From Agarivorans aestuarii (GTDB lineage Bacteria > Pseudomonadota > Gammaproteobacteria > Enterobacterales > Celerinatantimonadaceae), in NCBI RefSeq assembly GCF_019670125.1, contig NZ_AP023033.1, positions 1,434,501 through 1,498,500 of the forward strand: DNA of 64,000 nucleotides, given 5' to 3'. Made by a program: the position numbers and the translations under genes. Within the stretch, counting starts at the first letter, position 1; every line of letters starts with the position of its first letter. Below the pieces are notes generated by a model. It did not search any database, was not told where the DNA came from, and was given only the letters and a program-made list of their open reading frames with translations. Positions 1-35,493 of the stretch are shown piece after piece.

Positions 1-2251
1 CGTCTTGTTGTTGCTCTGGTGTTAGCGAGTTAAAGCGTACTGCATAACCCGATACACGGATGGTAAGCTGAGGGTATTTCTCAGGATTTTCCATCGCATC
101 AACCAACATTTCACGGTTCATTACGTTTACGTTTAAGTGTTGACCACCTTCTACGTCAGCGTTGTGGTAGAAGTAACCGTCCATTAAGCCAGCTAAGTTA
201 GACTTCTGGGTATCGTCATCTTTACCTAGTGCATTTGGCACGATAGAGAAGGTGTAAGATATACCGTCTTGTGCGTTAGCAAATGGTAGTTTAGCTACTG
301 ATGTTAATGATGCTACTGCACCTTTCTCATCACGACCGTGCATTGGGTTAGCACCAGGAGCGAATGGAGCACCTGCTTTACGACCATCTGGAGTAGTACC
401 CGTTTTCTTACCGTAAACAACGTTAGAAGTAATAGTAAGAACTGACTGAGTAGGAATCGCATCACGGTAAGTTTTAAGCTTACGGATCTTAGTCATGAAG
501 CGGTTTACTAGGTCAACAGCAATATCATCTACTTTGTCATCGTTGTTACCAAATTTAGGGTAATCACCTTCAATTTCAAAGTCGGTAGCAATACCGTCTT
601 CGTCACGAATAGGCTTAACTTTAGCAAATTTGATAGCTGACAATGAGTCAGCAGCAACTGATAGACCAGCAATACCACAAGCCATTGTACGGCGAACGTC
701 ACGATCGTGAAGTGCCATTAACGAAGCTTCGTAGCTGTATTTGTCGTGCATGTAGTGAATACAGTTTAATGCGGTCACATATTGCTCAGCTAACCAATCC
801 ATAAAGGTGTCTAAGCGACCCATTACGTCGTCAAAGCTTAGAACTTCGTCAGTGATCTTGTCAGATTTAGGACCTACTTGGATCTTAAGCTTCTCATCCA
901 TACCACCGTTAATAGCGTAAAGCAGCGTTTTAGCTAAGTTAGCGCGAGCACCGAAGAACTGCATGTGCTTACCAACAACCATTGGTGATACACAACAAGC
1001 AATTGCGTAGTCATCGTTGTCGAAGTCAGTACGCATTAGGTCATCGTTTTCGTACTGGATAGATGAAGTATCGATAGACACTTTGGCACAGTATTTCTTG
1101 AAGTTAATAGGTAGTTGCTCAGACCATAGAACAGTAATGTTCGGCTCTGGAGAAGGACCCATTGTGTATAGCGTGTTCAAGAAACGGAAAGCTGTACGGC
1201 TTACTAGCGTACGGCCGTCAGTACCCATACCACCGATAGACTCAGTTGCCCAGATTGGGTCACCAGAGAACAAATCATCGTATTCAGGCGTACGTAGGAA
1301 ACGAACCATACGTAGCTTCATTACTAAGTGGTCTACTAATTCTTGCGCTTCGCTTTCTGTTAGTGTGCCAGCAGCGATATCACGCTCAATGTACACGTCT
1401 AAGAAAGTAGTAGTACGACCAAACGACATTGCAGCGCCGTTTTGTGATTTAACAGCAGCTAGGTAGCCGAAGTAAGTCCACTGTACAGCTTCTTTTGCGT
1501 TTTCTGCTGGGCGAGAAATATCACAGCCGTATTTAGCTGCCATTTCTTTAATTTGAGCTAGTGCACGGTGCTGCTCGCTGATTTCTTCGCGAAGCTGCAT
1601 AGTAGAAGCTAGGTCAGAACCGTTTACAAAGTCACCTTCTAAAGAACGGTGCTGCTTAACTTTGTCAGCCATCAAGAAGTCGATACCGTAAAGTGCTACG
1701 CGACGGTAATCACCAATAATACGACCACGGCCGTAAGCATCTGGCAAACCAGTTAGTACACCTGACTTACGACACTTCATGATAGCGCCAGTGTAAACGT
1801 CAAATACACCTTGGTTGTGGGTTTTACGGTAGTCAGTGTAAATCTTGCTTACCATTGGATCTAATTCGCGATCGTAAGCTTTACAAGAACCTTCAATCAT
1901 ACGAATACCGCCGTTAGGGATAATCGCACGCTTTAATGGAGCTTCAGTTTGTAGACCAACAATTTGCTCTAAATCTTGGTTAATGTAGCCAGCATCGTGA
2001 GCGGTGATGGTTGAGATTACTGAAGTATCGAAGTCTACCGGCGAGTGAGTGCGGTTTTCTTCTTTAATGCCTTCCATAACTTTGTCCCAAAGCTGATCCG
2101 TAGCTTCGGTTGCTCCAGCTAGAAAGCTCTCATCGCCTTCATATGGAGTGTAGTTAGTTTGAATAAAGTCACGAACGTTAACTTCATTTTGCCATTCGCC
2201 GGTTTTAAAACCAGTCCAAGCACTAGCAAAAACATCGTTCTTCTCTGCCAT
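1..2251 (-). CDS. pflB: Pyruvate formate-lyase (formate C-acetyltransferase), 3' end cut by window
   Basis: Glycyl-radical enzyme that cleaves pyruvate with CoA to acetyl-CoA and formate during anaerobic growth, in the cytoplasm. The reading frame starts at the ATG at 2251, behind an AGGTGGG ribosome site, and is still open at base 1. The catalytic Cys pair lies in ACCVSP (Cys419-Cys420), and the radical glycine in RVSGYAVRF is Gly735. These are the same positions as in the E. coli enzyme, so only about ten C-terminal residues are missing. It is the second gene of an operon with the permease at 2377-3918, 125 bp upstream, and no other promoter is obvious between them. The PflA activating enzyme is not in the window. 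Confidence 0.98.
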
Positions 2252-2303
2252 TTTTTGTCCCACCTATAAGTTGGTATACAAATGAATATTCTATGGTTTA
2301 ACA

Positions 2304-2376: not shown

Positions 2377-3918
2377 CTATAACAATGCTGGAATACCGTA
2401 TTTACCTTCCAACATACCTACCGCCATCATAGCGATAAAACAAATCAACAATACGGTTGCAGGGATAACAATACGGTCTGCGAAAGATAGCTTCTTCGGA
2501 CGTTCTTTATCGCCGATTAGACCATTGTTATCAAGCAACATAGTCAGTGCCCAAGCCAATACCGGGTTAGTTACTGCTGCAGCAAAGATACAGATACCAG
2601 CAGATTGTGAATCTTTGGTGTCTTTAATCATTTGCATGCCAGCTTCTAATAGCGGTAAGAACACGCCTACTAATAAAGCAATCTTCATTACTGGAGGCCA
2701 TACTGCAACATCCATTGGGAAGCCCAGTATTGCAATGATGATACATAATGAACCAAGTAAAATTGCGCCGCCGGGAATAGGGCGTTTAGCAATAGCAGCA
2801 GGGATCATGTAAGTACCCCAGCTAGATGTGATGTTACCACCACCTACAGCAGTACCTACGATTTGACGAACTGAACAGGTTGTCATGGTGTCATCAACAT
2901 CCATTAATACTTTGTCAGTACCACGTGGGTAGTTTAGCTCTTGGAAAATACGGTGACCTAGGAAGTCTGGTGACCACATGGCTACCGCTAAGATGGCGAA
3001 CGGCAAAGAAGCAATAAAGTGTTCTGCGTTAGGCAAACCTAGTTGCCAACCTTGTTCAGTAGAACCCCACCAGTAAACTGGGTTTAAGTTAGGAAGGCCC
3101 ATCTCTGTTTTAAAGGTAAGGTCAAAACCAGCGCCGAAGGCCAAAGCAATTGCAAGGCCCATAACAGCACAGGCTGGAATCGCTAACCAGCGTTTACCAA
3201 TTTTTGCCAAGAATGCGTACAGTACGATGGTAGCAGCTAATACCACTAAGCCAACGTAACCCATCTCGCCTGCTGCAATACCTGCGTCAACTGATTCTAG
3301 CCCTTTAGACCAAGATTGGATGTCTCCAATCATTGACATAGTACCGCCAAAACCAAGGAACACCAGTAGGCCGCCAGCAACACCTTCACTGGTTAAGTTC
3401 ACCAGCTTAGAGCCGCCTTTAAAGAAGCTAAGTAGTAAACCAAATACACCTAACAAAATTGCTAGGGCAAGTGGGTGAGCACCCGCTAAAGCGATTGCTC
3501 CAATCAATGGAATCATTGGGCCGTGGTTACCCGCAAGGTTAGCTCGCGGGTTAAATATTCCCGATGCCAAAACACAGAACAGTAACGCAGGGATTAGCAT
3601 TTCTACACGCGCTACTTCAATGGCAAACTCAGTACCTAGGTTGATGTGATCCCAACGCTCGGTTAAGCCATCTGCCCAGGCCATCATTACCGCCGAGTAC
3701 ATCGCGATAATACCAATAGTACCGGCAATAGCTGGCACCAAATCTTCCCATTCGAAGCGGAAGTCACGACCTGGCAAATTTAAGCCCCAGCGACGAGGCT
3801 TCATGATTTTTAGTTCGTGGTCTAAGTAGTCGGAACGAGTTTCAAACTCAGAAGCCGGGCGGTGCGCTTCTGAATAACTCAGTTCTTCGTCTTGAGACTG
3901 GTGGTTGTTACTAGACAT
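2377..3918 (-). CDS. Multi-pass membrane permease, DUF3360-like
   Basis: Protein of 513 residues with an acidic, hydrophilic N-terminus of about 60 residues followed by roughly a dozen hydrophobic segments. It carries the conserved-looking stretch NPRANLAGNHGPMIPL near residue 130 and small-residue-rich helices like those of SulP/SLC26 and xanthine-type permeases. Length and style match the DUF3360 family as I recall it, whose substrate is unknown. The start is the ATG at 3918, because TTTGAGGAAAC precedes it at ideal spacing; the in-frame ATG at 3936 lacks such a site. It is co-directional with pflB and lies where focA lies in enterobacteria, behind an FNR-type promoter. Export or import of formate, pyruvate or another monocarboxylate is therefore plausible but is inference only. 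Confidence 0.8.
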   Translation of the reverse strand: MSSNNHQSQDEELSYSEAHRPASEFETRSDYLDHELKIMKPRRWGLNLPGRDFRFEWEDLVPAIAGTIGIIAMYSAVMMAWADGLTERWDHINLGTEFAIEVARVEMLIPALLFCVLASGIFNPRANLAGNHGPMIPLIGAIALAGAHPLALAILLGVFGLLLSFFKGGSKLVNLTSEGVAGGLLVFLGFGGTMSMIGDIQSWSKGLESVDAGIAAGEMGYVGLVVLAATIVLYAFLAKIGKRWLAIPACAVMGLAIALAFGAGFDLTFKTEMGLPNLNPVYWWGSTEQGWQLGLPNAEHFIASLPFAILAVAMWSPDFLGHRIFQELNYPRGTDKVLMDVDDTMTTCSVRQIVGTAVGGGNITSSWGTYMIPAAIAKRPIPGGAILLGSLCIIIAILGFPMDVAVWPPVMKIALLVGVFLPLLEAGMQMIKDTKDSQSAGICIFAAAVTNPVLAWALTMLLDNNGLIGDKERPKKLSFADRIVIPATVLLICFIAMMAVGMLEGKYGIPALL

Positions 3919-4224
3919 AGTTTCCTCAAAAAACAAATATAAAAACCGGTAAACCGCAGATGCTTAACTATGTGTTGTTAAGCCTGAGATCCTTCTCACT
4001 CGCGATAATCGTCTCAACGGGACGAACAACATATAAGGATAGTGAGTATAAAGCGTGAAATAACAGTATGCAGCTATAGTTAAAAAGTGTAGTGCTTAAC
4101 TGCATTAAATAAATATGAAAGAAAAACAAAATTCGGCGATTTGGTAAATCATTGTTAGTAATACTTAGGCCGCTTATTTTGTAGTTCTTAACCACAACAT
4201 CTACCTGCTACTTTAATTAGCAAA

Positions 4225-4267
4225 ATTGTATCAAAGTAAGCAAGATCTGGAATTTGATCTGGGTCAA
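4225..4267 (-). promoter_or_regulatory. FNR-like class II promoter of the permease-pflB operon
   Basis: An FNR-like box, TTGAT-CTGG-GTCAA, lies at 4254-4267 (one mismatch to TTGAT-N4-ATCAA). On the minus strand a -10 hexamer TACAAT lies at 4230-4225. The start implied near 4219 is 41.5 bp from the box centre, the spacing of class II FNR-activated promoters. This predicts an untranslated leader of about 300 nt before the ATG at 3918. The box and hexamer are seen; binding and start site are inferred. Confidence 0.65.
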
Positions 4268-4305
4268 AAAAGCCCATAATTTGTGTAATTTTACTACTTA
4301 TTTAT

Positions 4306-4326
4306 GGCTTAAAGCCGCAGGTAAGC
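4306..4326. promoter_or_regulatory. Upstream block shared with adhE (GCTTA-N10-TAAGC)
   Basis: GGCTTAAAGC-N3-AGGTAAGC lies 38 bp upstream of the FNR-like box. The same 21 bp, differing only in the three spacer bases, occurs at 35205-35225 upstream of the adhE FNR-like box, in the same orientation to its gene. Within it GCTTA and TAAGC form an inverted pair with a 10-bp spacer, as expected for a dimeric regulator. A TGTAATTTT stretch lies beside both copies. I do not recognise the cognate regulator. Confidence 0.5.
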
Positions 4327-4769
4327 GCAGTTGTGGACTTTATTCTGTAATTTACTTACTAAAATTGTTGACTTAGTAATGAGAGCCGGCTCACTTTATT
4401 ACCACTAACAATTACGCTGTATTTTACAATTGCGCAACAGTAAATACGGTTCTGGCCGCAAACTACACTAAAAGGCATATTATCGATAAAAACCGAGCTA
4501 AAATTCTAAAACTGAAATTAAATTCGTTGCGCAGGCGTTTAATAGCGTATCTATGCATACAGGTTGAATATAAAGATGCTAATAAAATCGCTTAATAGGG
4601 TGTTTTGTAATCATAAGAGCGCCAATTGCCCCATAAAATGTTGAGTTTTGTCTTTTGCGATGATACTTTTCGTTGGGTTGAACGTGTAACAAATTATTTA
4701 ACAATAACTACGCGCCTTAGGAAACAAGGCTGGTTGCTTAGGCAGTCATTAACAAGGTAAACATAAAAT

Positions 4770-32268: not shown

Positions 32269-34932
32269 TTAAGCTTTAGCTTTAGTCGCTTTTTTTGCTG
32301 GTGCTTTTTTAGCAGCAGCAGCTTCGCGTTCTTCTGCTTCTACGTACGGGCGGCCGTAGTAAGAATCAAGTAGAACTTGCTTAAGCTCAGCGATTAATGG
32401 GTAACGTGGGTTAGCACCAGTACACTGGTCATCAAACGCGTCAACCGCTAGCTCGTCAACTTTAGCCAAGAAGTCTGCTTCGTTTACACCAGCAGCTTGA
32501 ATTGATAATGGAATATCAATTTCAACTTTAAGCTCGTCTAACCAAGTTAACAATGCGTTTAGCTTGTCTTCAGTGTTACCTTCACGGAAACCTAAGTGCT
32601 CAGCAACTTCAGCGTAACGAGCACGTGCTTTAGGACGGTCGTACTGAGAGAACGCAGTTTGTTTAGTTGGCGTGTTAGTTGCGTTGTAACGAATAACGTT
32701 AGTTAGCAATAATGCGTTAGCTAAACCGTGTGGTACGTGGAACTCAGCACCTAGTTTGTGAGCCATTGAGTGACAAACACCTAGGAAAGAGTTAGCAAAC
32801 GCGATACCAGCGATAGTAGCAGCATTGTGTACTTTCTCACGAGCTACAGGGTCAGCTTTACCGTTTTTGTAAGAGCTTGGTAAGTATTCTTTAAGCATCT
32901 TAAGCGCTTGTAGAGCTTGACCGTCTGAGTATTCGTTCGCTAGAACAGAAACGTAAGCTTCCATAGCGTGAGTAACCGCATCGTAACCACCGAAGGCACA
33001 TAGTGACTTAGGCATATCCATTACTAGGTTAGCATCAACAACAGCCATGTTAGGCGTTAGTTCGTAATCAGCTAATGGGTACTTCTGGCCAGTCTTATCG
33101 TCAGTTACAACAGCAAAAGGTGTTACTTCTGAACCCGTACCTGAAGTAGTAGTAATACATACTAGCTCAGCTTTTGAACCCATTTTAGGGAACTTGTAAA
33201 TACGTTTACGGATGTCCATAAAGCGCATTGATAGGTCTTCGAAATCAGTTTCTGGGTGCTCGTACATTACCCACATGATTTTCGCAGCGTCCATCGGAGA
33301 ACCACCACCAACAGCAAGAATTACGTCTGGCTGGTAGTTGTGACAAGCTTGTGCGCCTTTCTCAACAATAGACAGAGTAGGATCGGCTTCTACGTCGTGG
33401 AATACTTCCACTTCCATACCTTTGTCTTTAAGGATGGCACGTAGGTCGTCTATGTAACCGTTGTTGAATAGGAAGTTATCAGTAACAACCATTGCACGTT
33501 TCTTGCCGTCTAGGTCGTCCATTGCGATTGGTAATGAACCACGACGGAAGTAGATTGACTTAGGTAGTTTATGCCACAACATGTTCTCAGCTCGCTTCGC
33601 AACAATTTTCTTATTGATTAGGTGTTTTGGACCCACGTTTTCAGAAATCGCGTTACCACCCCATGAACCACAACCTAGAGTTAGAGAAGGTGCTAGTTCG
33701 AAGTTGTAAAGGTCACCAATACCACCGTGTGAAGAAGGGGTATTCACAAGAATACGAGCAGTCTTCATTTTGTCGCCAAAGTAAGCGATACGGTCAGCGT
33801 TAGCATCTTGGTCAGTGTAAAGTACAGACGTGTGACCAACACCACCGATGTCTAACACGATGCCAGCTTGGCGAACCGCGTCTTCAAAGTCTTTCGCTTT
33901 GAACACACCTAGAGTAGGAGATAGTTTCTCGTGAGCAAACTCGTCATCGTAAGACGCTTCTAAGCCTTCACCGATAAGGATTTTAGTTGCTTTTGGTACT
34001 GTTACACCAGCTAGCTCAGCAATTTTGTATGCTGGTTGGCCAACGATTTTCGCGTTAAGCGCACCGTTGATTAGCAATACTTTACGTACTTTATCTGCGT
34101 CAGACTTGCTTAGTACTGCTGCACCGTATTTCGCAAAACGTGCCATTACTTCGTCGTACTTAGATTCAACGATGATAGCCGCTTGCTCAGAAGCACAGAT
34201 AACGCCGTTATCAAAAGTCTTAGACATTAAGATAGAAGATACAGCACGTTTAACATCTGCAGTTTCATCAATAACTACCGGCGTGTTACCAGCACCAACG
34301 CCAATTGCAGGCTTACCAGAAGAGTAAGCTGCTTTAACCATGCCTGGACCACCAGTTGCAAGGATAAGAGAAATGTCGTCGTGCTTCATTAATGCGTTAG
34401 ACAATTCAACAGAAGGAGTATCAATCCAGCCAATGATGTCTTTAGGCGCACCAGCTTTAATTGCAGCGTCTAATACTAATTGAGCCGCAAAGTTGGTTGA
34501 GTTCTTGGCACGTGGGTGCGGAGAGAAGATACAACCGTTACGCGTTTTAAGGCTGATTAGCGCTTTAAAGATAGCGGTAGAAGTTGGGTTAGTGGTTGGA
34601 ACGATTGCACAAACAATGCCTACTGGCTCAGCGATAGTAATAGTACCGCCTTCGTCGTTACGTTCGATAACGCCACAAGTTAAAGTATCTTTGTATTTGT
34701 TATAAATGAACTCAGAAGCAAAGTGGTTTTTGATCACTTTATCTTCCATTATGCCCATGCCAGACTCTTCAGCCGCCATACGAGCTAGTTCAATACGTGC
34801 TGTAGAAGCAGCGAGTGACGCGGCGCGGAAAATTTTGTCCACTTGTTCTTGGTCGTAAGATGCAAATTCAGCTTGCGCTGCCTTTACTCGAGCAACCATT
34901 GCGTTTAACTCATCAATATTACCTACAGGCAT
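32269..34932 (-). CDS. adhE: Bifunctional acetaldehyde-CoA / alcohol dehydrogenase
   Basis: Protein of 887 residues that reduces acetyl-CoA to acetaldehyde and then to ethanol, regenerating NAD in fermentation; AdhE proteins form spirosome filaments. The N-terminal aldehyde dehydrogenase half has GVGAGNTPVVID and the catalytic Cys in NGVICASEQAA. The C-terminal iron-dependent half has GGGSPMDAAK and the metal-binding HSMAHKLGAEFHVPHG. A tail of about 15 Lys/Ala residues ends the protein. GAGGAGAACAGG precedes the ATG. Its product complements pflB at the left of the window, and both have FNR-like promoters. Confidence 0.97.
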   Translation of the reverse strand: MPVGNIDELNAMVARVKAAQAEFASYDQEQVDKIFRAASLAASTARIELARMAAEESGMGIMEDKVIKNHFASEFIYNKYKDTLTCGVIERNDEGGTITIAEPVGIVCAIVPTTNPTSTAIFKALISLKTRNGCIFSPHPRAKNSTNFAAQLVLDAAIKAGAPKDIIGWIDTPSVELSNALMKHDDISLILATGGPGMVKAAYSSGKPAIGVGAGNTPVVIDETADVKRAVSSILMSKTFDNGVICASEQAAIIVESKYDEVMARFAKYGAAVLSKSDADKVRKVLLINGALNAKIVGQPAYKIAELAGVTVPKATKILIGEGLEASYDDEFAHEKLSPTLGVFKAKDFEDAVRQAGIVLDIGGVGHTSVLYTDQDANADRIAYFGDKMKTARILVNTPSSHGGIGDLYNFELAPSLTLGCGSWGGNAISENVGPKHLINKKIVAKRAENMLWHKLPKSIYFRRGSLPIAMDDLDGKKRAMVVTDNFLFNNGYIDDLRAILKDKGMEVEVFHDVEADPTLSIVEKGAQACHNYQPDVILAVGGGSPMDAAKIMWVMYEHPETDFEDLSMRFMDIRKRIYKFPKMGSKAELVCITTTSGTGSEVTPFAVVTDDKTGQKYPLADYELTPNMAVVDANLVMDMPKSLCAFGGYDAVTHAMEAYVSVLANEYSDGQALQALKMLKEYLPSSYKNGKADPVAREKVHNAATIAGIAFANSFLGVCHSMAHKLGAEFHVPHGLANALLLTNVIRYNATNTPTKQTAFSQYDRPKARARYAEVAEHLGFREGNTEDKLNALLTWLDELKVEIDIPLSIQAAGVNEADFLAKVDELAVDAFDDQCTGANPRYPLIAELKQVLLDSYYGRPYVEAEEREAAAAKKAPAKKATKAKA

Positions 34933-35047: not shown

Positions 35048-35088
35048 ATTATAATAGCCCTTTAGTGGTACCACTTGATCCAGATCAT
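35048..35088 (-). promoter_or_regulatory. FNR-like class II promoter of adhE
   Basis: An FNR-like box, TTGAT-CCAG-ATCAT (35075-35088, one mismatch), is followed on the minus strand by a consensus -10 hexamer TATAAT at 35053-35048. A start near 35041 puts the box centre at about -41, the class II position. The leader would be about 110 nt. Geometry matches the box and hexamer of the permease-pflB operon. Confidence 0.7.
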
Positions 35089-35204
35089 GTGTTGCTAAGT
35101 TACAAATGTAAAAAAATCACTAAATAATTACAGCTTTATTTAGTAATTGGTGTAATTTTTGAACAGTTGTTGTAATTTTTACCATATTCTTTTGTAATAC
35201 AAAA

Positions 35205-35225
35205 GGCTTAAAGCTAAAGGTAAGC
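35205..35225. promoter_or_regulatory. Upstream block shared with the pflB operon
   Basis: GGCTTAAAGC-N3-AGGTAAGC, identical to 4306-4326 except for the three spacer bases, lies 116 bp upstream of the adhE FNR-like box. Several TGTAATTTTT stretches (35151-35182) lie between it and the box. The rest of the 560-bp region between adhE and oppA is AT-rich and non-coding and must also hold the oppA promoter, which I cannot place with confidence. Confidence 0.5.
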
Positions 35226-35493
35226 TGACGATTACTGATCATTATTAACAATTTATTAGAGGTTAGCTTAACCTAGTGGTTTAACAATAAAAATCTATTT
35301 GTTTTCGAGAATAATCGCGCTGATCGAGCTGTGAAAGGTAACTTATTATTTGTTGTTTTTTAAATTCGGGTGTAGCATCTGGCGTTGATATGCGTTTTAT
35401 TAGAATATTGTACTGATTTAATATTCATGTAAAGTGAATGGAAATTTCACAAACGGCCTATTTATAGCCAAATGTGTCAATATGGAGATGAAA

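Follow-up and report, generated by a model that had tools for sequence, protein, structure and literature searches.

The repeated block and its gene neighborhoods

The window, that is, the whole 64,000-nucleotide stretch of the Agarivorans aestuarii genome (G000) that was analyzed, encodes pyruvate formate-lyase and the bifunctional dehydrogenase AdhE at two separate loci, each with one copy of a 21-bp block upstream. The genes and the two copies are the following:

2..2263, minus strand: pflB, for pyruvate formate-lyase, truncated at the window start; named from the translation alone
2377..3936, minus strand: gene for a DUF3360 membrane protein, heading the pflB operon (Pfam PF11840, 959.3 bits)
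4306..4326, no strand: block copy 1, GGCTTAAAGC-CGC-AGGTAAGC, judged a chance resemblance; located within the variable spacer that separates two conserved dyads
32269..34932, minus strand: adhE, bifunctional acetaldehyde-CoA/alcohol dehydrogenase (NF010378, 1428.8 bits, cut-off 951)
35205..35225, no strand: block copy 2, GGCTTAAAGC-TAA-AGGTAAGC, judged a chance resemblance

The initial annotation, in which the block was proposed to bind a dimeric regulator of fermentation, described its form correctly: the two copies of GGCTTAAAGC-N3-AGGTAAGC are identical at 18 of 21 positions, and all three spacer bases differ. They are the only exact GCTTA-N10-TAAGC sites in the window, and nowhere else in the 4.69 Mb genome are all 18 fixed bases matched. 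Three further genomic places match with two mismatches, all of them inside open reading frames (ORFs), and 13 places match with three. The location upstream of the pflB and adhE operons holds for both operons, with the correction that the first gene after 4306 encodes the DUF3360 protein and pflB comes second. The copies also lie 5' of divergently transcribed genes, those for a HisP-like ABC ATPase (4770) and an OppA-like protein (35488), both of these calls being under the NCBIfam curated cut-offs. Copy 1 is therefore flanked by the DUF3360-pflB operon on one side and the HisP-like ABC operon on the other, and copy 2 by adhE and the oppA-like gene. Both copies are located beyond an FNR-like box, as had been claimed, but at unequal distances from the FNR start, 52 bp at pfl vs 130 bp at adhE.

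Comparison of the block with chance expectation

Direct pairs of segments with at least 18 of 21 identical positions numbered 28 in the window, compared with 27, 21, and 17 in three Markov windows. When the two intergenic regions were fixed in advance, 12 of 300 Markov pairs reached 18/21 in either orientation. Exact pairs of the 10+N3+8 form, which was defined as precisely these 18 positions only once the match had been seen, occurred twice in direct orientation and 11 times in inverted orientation in the window, vs totals of 1 and 4, respectively, over ten simulated windows. The window is, in general, richer in such exact pairs than Markov windows, mostly in inverted ones.

At the genome scale, the three matches with two mismatches compare with none in five simulated genomes, and the 13 matches with three mismatches exceed the 7.2 found on average in the simulations (range 2-12); codon usage probably accounts for this excess. 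Searching with the pattern written backwards returned far fewer matches than the block itself, but the reversed block has three CG steps and is a poor control, so Markov genomes were used instead. The bare GCTTA-N10-TAAGC dyad is found at 39 genomic sites, roughly twofold above the approximately 18 in a Markov genome. Over all spacers from 0 to 20, GCTTA-Nk-TAAGC occurs at 514 places (about 24.5 per spacer) vs about 366 for the summed simulated means, an approximately 1.4-fold excess. A privileged spacing of 10 was rejected, given that N10 is over-represented somewhat, not strikingly (39 vs the mean of about 24.5 per spacer). Among the first 15 of the 39 N10 dyads, eight lie inside ORFs of at least 100 aa and seven outside, including both copies in the window. 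The clustering of genomic copies 5' of fermentation genes that the initial annotation had suggested looking for was not observed: there are two copies only, and the next-best three are all in ORFs.

Conservation of the block in related genomes

We aligned the adhE upstream regions of 12 genomes of the family and the DUF3360 upstream regions of the 10 that have this gene. Compared with six congeners, the block has a mean identity of 0.44 (adhE) and 0.48 (pfl), against a regional average of 0.79. Among the 21-mers of its own intergenic region, the block ranks in the lowest 0.4% by conservation at adhE and in the lowest 1.5% at pfl. The GCTTA/TAAGC dyad is intact in none of the six congeners. Even in G006, the closest relative by intergenic identity (0.94 and 0.93), the pfl copy carries one change among the 18 bases, which breaks the TAAGC arm (TAATC), and the adhE copy carries three mismatches with both arms broken. 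A scan of 39 upstream regions (27 of DUF3360 genes and 12 of adhE, the G006 pfl region being outside the scan) with up to four mismatches returned nothing beyond the two copies in the window, the adhE copy of G006, and one match with four mismatches that overlaps copy 1 in reverse orientation.

Close relatives thus do not conserve the block 5' of pflB or adhE, the very observation that the initial annotation had named as speaking against its proposal. The proposed role as the site of a dimeric regulator is unsupported: the repeat is at chance level, and we judge it to be a chance resemblance because it is not conserved where its neighbors are. The shared block looks like a coincidence in fast-changing DNA; it is a true observation, but on present evidence not a functional feature. 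A palindrome next to copy 2, TTTTGTAATACAAAA, was likewise set aside as unconserved (0.53). Farther along the same intergenic region, at 35261-35273, there is a near-palindrome, GGTTAGCTTAACC, of which the TAGCTTAAC part is kept in all seven members of the genus, 5' of the oppA-like gene; it is perhaps a piece of the oppA-like promoter or another operator.

FNR boxes and HexR-type dyads at the pfl and adhE promoters

In the same upstream regions, the following elements were delineated (mean identities are those in six congeners):

4225..4230, minus strand: TACAAT, a -10-like hexamer in the DUF3360-pflB promoter; centre-to-centre distance to the FNR box, 33 bp
4254..4267, no strand: FNR-like box TTGATCTGGGTCAA at pfl, mean identity 0.86
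4284..4298, no strand: HexR-type dyad A, TGTAATTTTACTACT, 10/12 fixed positions, mean identity 0.98
4346..4360, no strand: HexR-type dyad B, TGTAATTTACTTACT, 10/12, 62 bp from A, mean identity 1.00
35048..35053, minus strand: TATAAT, a -10-like hexamer in the adhE promoter; centre-to-centre distance to the FNR box, 31 bp; present in G000
35075..35088, no strand: FNR-like box TTGATCCAGATCAT at adhE, identical in six congeners (1.00)
35107..35121, no strand: weak HexR-type dyad A', TGTAAAAAAATCACT, 9/12, 32 bp from the FNR start, mean identity 0.97
35171..35183, no strand: degenerate HexR-type dyad B', TGTAATTTTTACC, mean identity 0.77

At class II promoters, FNR is centred near -41.5. Both promoters have a conserved FNR box suitably spaced from a -10 hexamer, and this spacing appears to fit class II FNR-activated promoters in each case. 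At pfl, the hexamer is identical in six congeners, and the FNR box is conserved letter for letter only moderately (0.86). With known class II FNR promoters, these regions share the TTGAT-N4-RTCA box and a -10-like hexamer located 31-33 bp away, centre to centre; they differ in that the start sites here are predicted from these elements, near 4219 and 35040 on the minus strand, and in the presence of extra dyads upstream of the FNR box.

At pfl, dyads A and B flank block copy 1; in G000, their first positions are 30 bp (A) and 92 bp (B) from the FNR start. Their agreement with the published HexR site TGTAATTAAATTACA is 10/12 in G000, rising to 11/12 for dyad A in G005 and G007, and the two G000 sites at 10/12 compare with 0.11 expected from 200 shuffles. 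The spacing between A and B is 62-63 bp in all 10 family members that have the DUF3360 gene, including G007, from another genus, in which the dyads are TGTAATTAAATTACC and TGTAATTTATATACA, 63 bp apart. Both pfl dyads score 9/12 in G008 and G009, where dyad B is TGTAAGTTACTTACC and, unlike the other copies, has symmetric innermost arm bases. We also searched for the paired A-B pattern with 30 spacings allowed, and its only matches in the 12 family genomes were at the pfl promoter, in nine of them; this pattern was built from the sites already found and missed G007, and its backwards control gave no match in 10 of the 12 genomes and matches in G007 and G011.

At adhE, agreement with the published site is weaker (at most 9/12 in G000): the region contains no sites at 10/12 (0.15 expected) and three at 9/12 (0.98 expected). 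Dyad A', 32 bp from the FNR start, scores 9/12 in all seven members of the genus. A second dyad, 95-96 bp from the FNR start, scores 9/12 in G001, G002, G003, and G005 and 10/12 in G008 and G009, the last two having an A' score of only 8/12. In the former four genomes, a 15-bp dyad occupies the B' position, 63-64 bp from A', whereas B' is degenerate in G000, G006, and G004. The pair is not seen at adhE in G007, G010, and G011; in G007, two good dyads are instead located at offsets of 22 and 39 bp, and G010 and G011 have no dyad above 7/12 at the expected places. Tentatively, adhE could carry a weaker version of the pfl arrangement.

Geometry of FNR boxes and dyads across the order

A search of the order for DUF3360 gave a match in 57 of 197 genomes. 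The 27 DUF3360 upstream regions comprise the 22 further loci that this search returned from the order and 5 of the 10 family loci; one locus (L100, family f6) had no FNR match and was left out, so that 26 loci were scored. A dyad was called at 9/12 or better against TGTAATNNNATTACA, a threshold chosen after earlier scores had been seen. In 19 of the 26 loci, and in four of the five families (8/8 loci in f11, 5/5 in f1, 5/8 in f21, 1/1 in f2, and 0/4 in f20), a dyad starts 28-30 bp from the FNR start, compared with a background of 0.20 loci per offset on average over 1000 offsets, peak included; the scored loci are related to each other, and these counts are not independent. The second dyad starts at 80-82 bp in f21 and f2 (8 loci) and at 91-93 bp in f1 (all five loci used); in five loci of f21 and f2, both dyads are present, 52-53 bp apart. 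Approximately five or six helical turns thus separate the two dyads. The f11 loci show no recurrent dyad of at least 9/12 at the second positions.

HexR and its predicted sites in the genome

In PMC11906056, the HexR site is given as TGTAATTAAATTACA, AGTAATTAAATTACA and TGAAAAAAAATTACA are named as putative sites at two promoters that HexR regulates, and HexR bound upstream of a promoter is regarded as activating. In Shewanellaceae and Vibrionales, HexR regulons extend to fermentation genes (PMC5343134).

A search of the genome for HTH_6 proteins gave two. One is HexR, encoded beside glk (NF008451, 520.6 bits, cut-off 296). The glk-hexR intergenic DNA contains a site matching at 11/12, which by itself is weak evidence given that the seven one-mismatch sites in the genome are close in number to the six that the backwards control gave over the whole search. 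The other is a second RpiR-family regulator encoded at genome position 1500366 (L083), about 1.9 kb past the window end, adjoining ABC-transporter-like genes (named from translations) and having no NCBIfam match at 1e-40. Perfect TGTAATWWWATTACA sites with a WWW centre number five in the genome, vs one for the backwards control:

genome 118068 (L077): upstream of nirB
genome 877525 (L078): upstream of a stand-alone glycine-radical GrcA-like gene (Pfam only)
genome 921905 (L079): upstream of serA, just after rpiA
genome 3012709 (L080): upstream of a D-lactate dehydrogenase-like gene, with lrgAB diverging
genome 4077997 (L081): upstream of ppc

Location of the motif near central carbon genes, as expected of a HexR regulon, was thus observed for all five perfect sites.

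The gene zwf is the usual core target of HexR. No zwf match (TIGR00871) was detected in the G000 genome, and the controls match in 9 of 14 genomes. The usual core target of HexR seems to be absent here, which is odd for a HexR-bearing genome, and HexR may have changed its signal or role in this organism.

Candidate two-input control of pflB and adhE

The interpretation that we favor, and consider fairly probable, is that the block is a chance resemblance and that the two promoters share an FNR-like box with HexR-type dyads upstream of it, for which HexR is the candidate binder. The initial annotation's suggestion of a second regulator that acts with FNR does not hold for the block, but is likely to be right in substance by way of the neighboring TGTAATTTT (TGTAAT) dyads, which resemble the HexR site. 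Judging from the sequence, a second regulator, HexR or one with the same site, is likely to operate beside FNR at both promoters.

Under this model, the block would fall within a variable spacer between two conserved operators at pfl and within variable DNA beyond the operators at adhE. The dyads are located upstream of the FNR box; the first one starts 28-30 bp from the FNR start at pfl and 32 bp from it at adhE, and the second one is about six helical turns (62-64 bp) past the first. On the class II reading, the pfl dyads would be located near -72 and -134, roughly on one helix face. Dimeric HexR is predicted to occupy these dyads and to share approximately one helix face with FNR; it would probably be a co-activator, an upstream partner of FNR, because its sites precede the promoter. 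Binding at the two dyads may be cooperative, conceivably with looping. Such an arrangement would tie the pyruvate fermentation genes to sugar-phosphate status in addition to the lack of oxygen.

Two other readings retain a function for the block itself. It might be an operator that a dimeric regulator gained recently and uses in no species other than this one and its closest relative, as could be suggested by the two exact copies 5' of two related operons, the near-perfect pfl copy kept in G006 (one change of 18), and the rarity of exact 10+N3+8 pairs in simulations. We regard this scenario as very unlikely: the changes in G006 break the TAAGC arm at pfl and both arms at adhE, the genome has no other copy with up to two mismatches outside ORFs, and the distances to the FNR box are unequal (52 vs 130 bp). 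Even less credible is a terminator-type hairpin or a dispersed repeat. The GCTTA-Nk-TAAGC pair is indeed commoner than the Markov prediction (514 vs about 366), and some of the N10 sites are located between converging genes beside T or A runs (L003, L012), but the genes flanking each copy in the window diverge, neither copy is followed by a T run, and no additional exact copy exists in the genome, so that this possibility was rejected on position and copy number.

The remaining alternative concerns the binder, with dyads A and B being real operators of a different regulator, such as another RpiR-family protein with an RccR-like site. RccR has two sites 68 bp apart upstream of Pseudomonas fluorescens aceE (PMC5489143), one of which, TGTAGTTTTACTACT, is a single base from dyad A (TGTAATTTTACTACT); moreover, the second HTH_6 protein is encoded about 1.9 kb past the window end. 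The resemblance between the two systems consists in a pair of closely similar 15-bp dyads upstream of a pyruvate gene. The RccR half sites TGTAGT/ACTACA are not what is found here, where the left arm is TGTAAT at both G000 pfl dyads and the right arm of A is ACTACT; the 68 bp spacing also differs, the passages of PMC5489143 consulted mention no FNR box, and no RccR was identified in the present analysis. The sites in G005 and G007 are nearer the HexR consensus, and just two HTH_6 proteins were found, HexR and the one without an NCBIfam match among ABC-transporter-like genes. A binder other than HexR is accordingly improbable in our estimation, though clearly less so than any function of the block.

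With HexR as the preferred binder, the arrangement resembles the HexR regulon of Vibrionales and Shewanellaceae (PMC5343134) in the HexR protein, the location of sites by central carbon and fermentation genes, and what looks like the same type of site. It differs in that the pflB and adhE sites are weaker than the consensus, the sites form a spaced pair tied to an FNR box, and zwf was not found. Among the titles and abstract openings listed in literature searches, none points to an FNR and HexR arrangement at pflB or adhE, and we make no claim that it is unpublished. The combination of FNR with paired HexR-type dyads likely adds to the known HexR regulon, and its pfl-side sites are conserved in related bacteria. 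What replaces the false operator is a candidate two-input control with fixed geometry, in which oxygen would be sensed via FNR and carbon status via a HexR-type protein; ten family members retain the 62-63 bp spacing, even though the intervening DNA varies.

A broader possibility, which we put forward only tentatively, is that this design, in which HexR-type dyads stand a fixed number of helical turns upstream of a class II FNR box, is kept in at least four families of the order and that two HexR dimers act with FNR, perhaps through a loop or a tetramer. If so, mixed-acid fermentation would be switched on only in the absence of oxygen combined with a fitting sugar-phosphate signal, and the joint control of pflB and adhE, in a genome with HexR but without detectable zwf, would follow from their having this design in common.

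The DUF3360 gene, which served as the anchor for the pfl region, is missing from G010 and G011 among the 12 family genomes, and the copy of one relative (G009:C1:173649-175175) contains an in-frame TAG. A literature search for this family yielded no paper. A PflB-type peptide motif was detected 3' of DUF3360, within the 1500 downstream bases scanned, in five of eight f21 loci and one of eight f11 loci. Our guess is that the DUF3360 protein is a transporter of formate or another fermentation acid.
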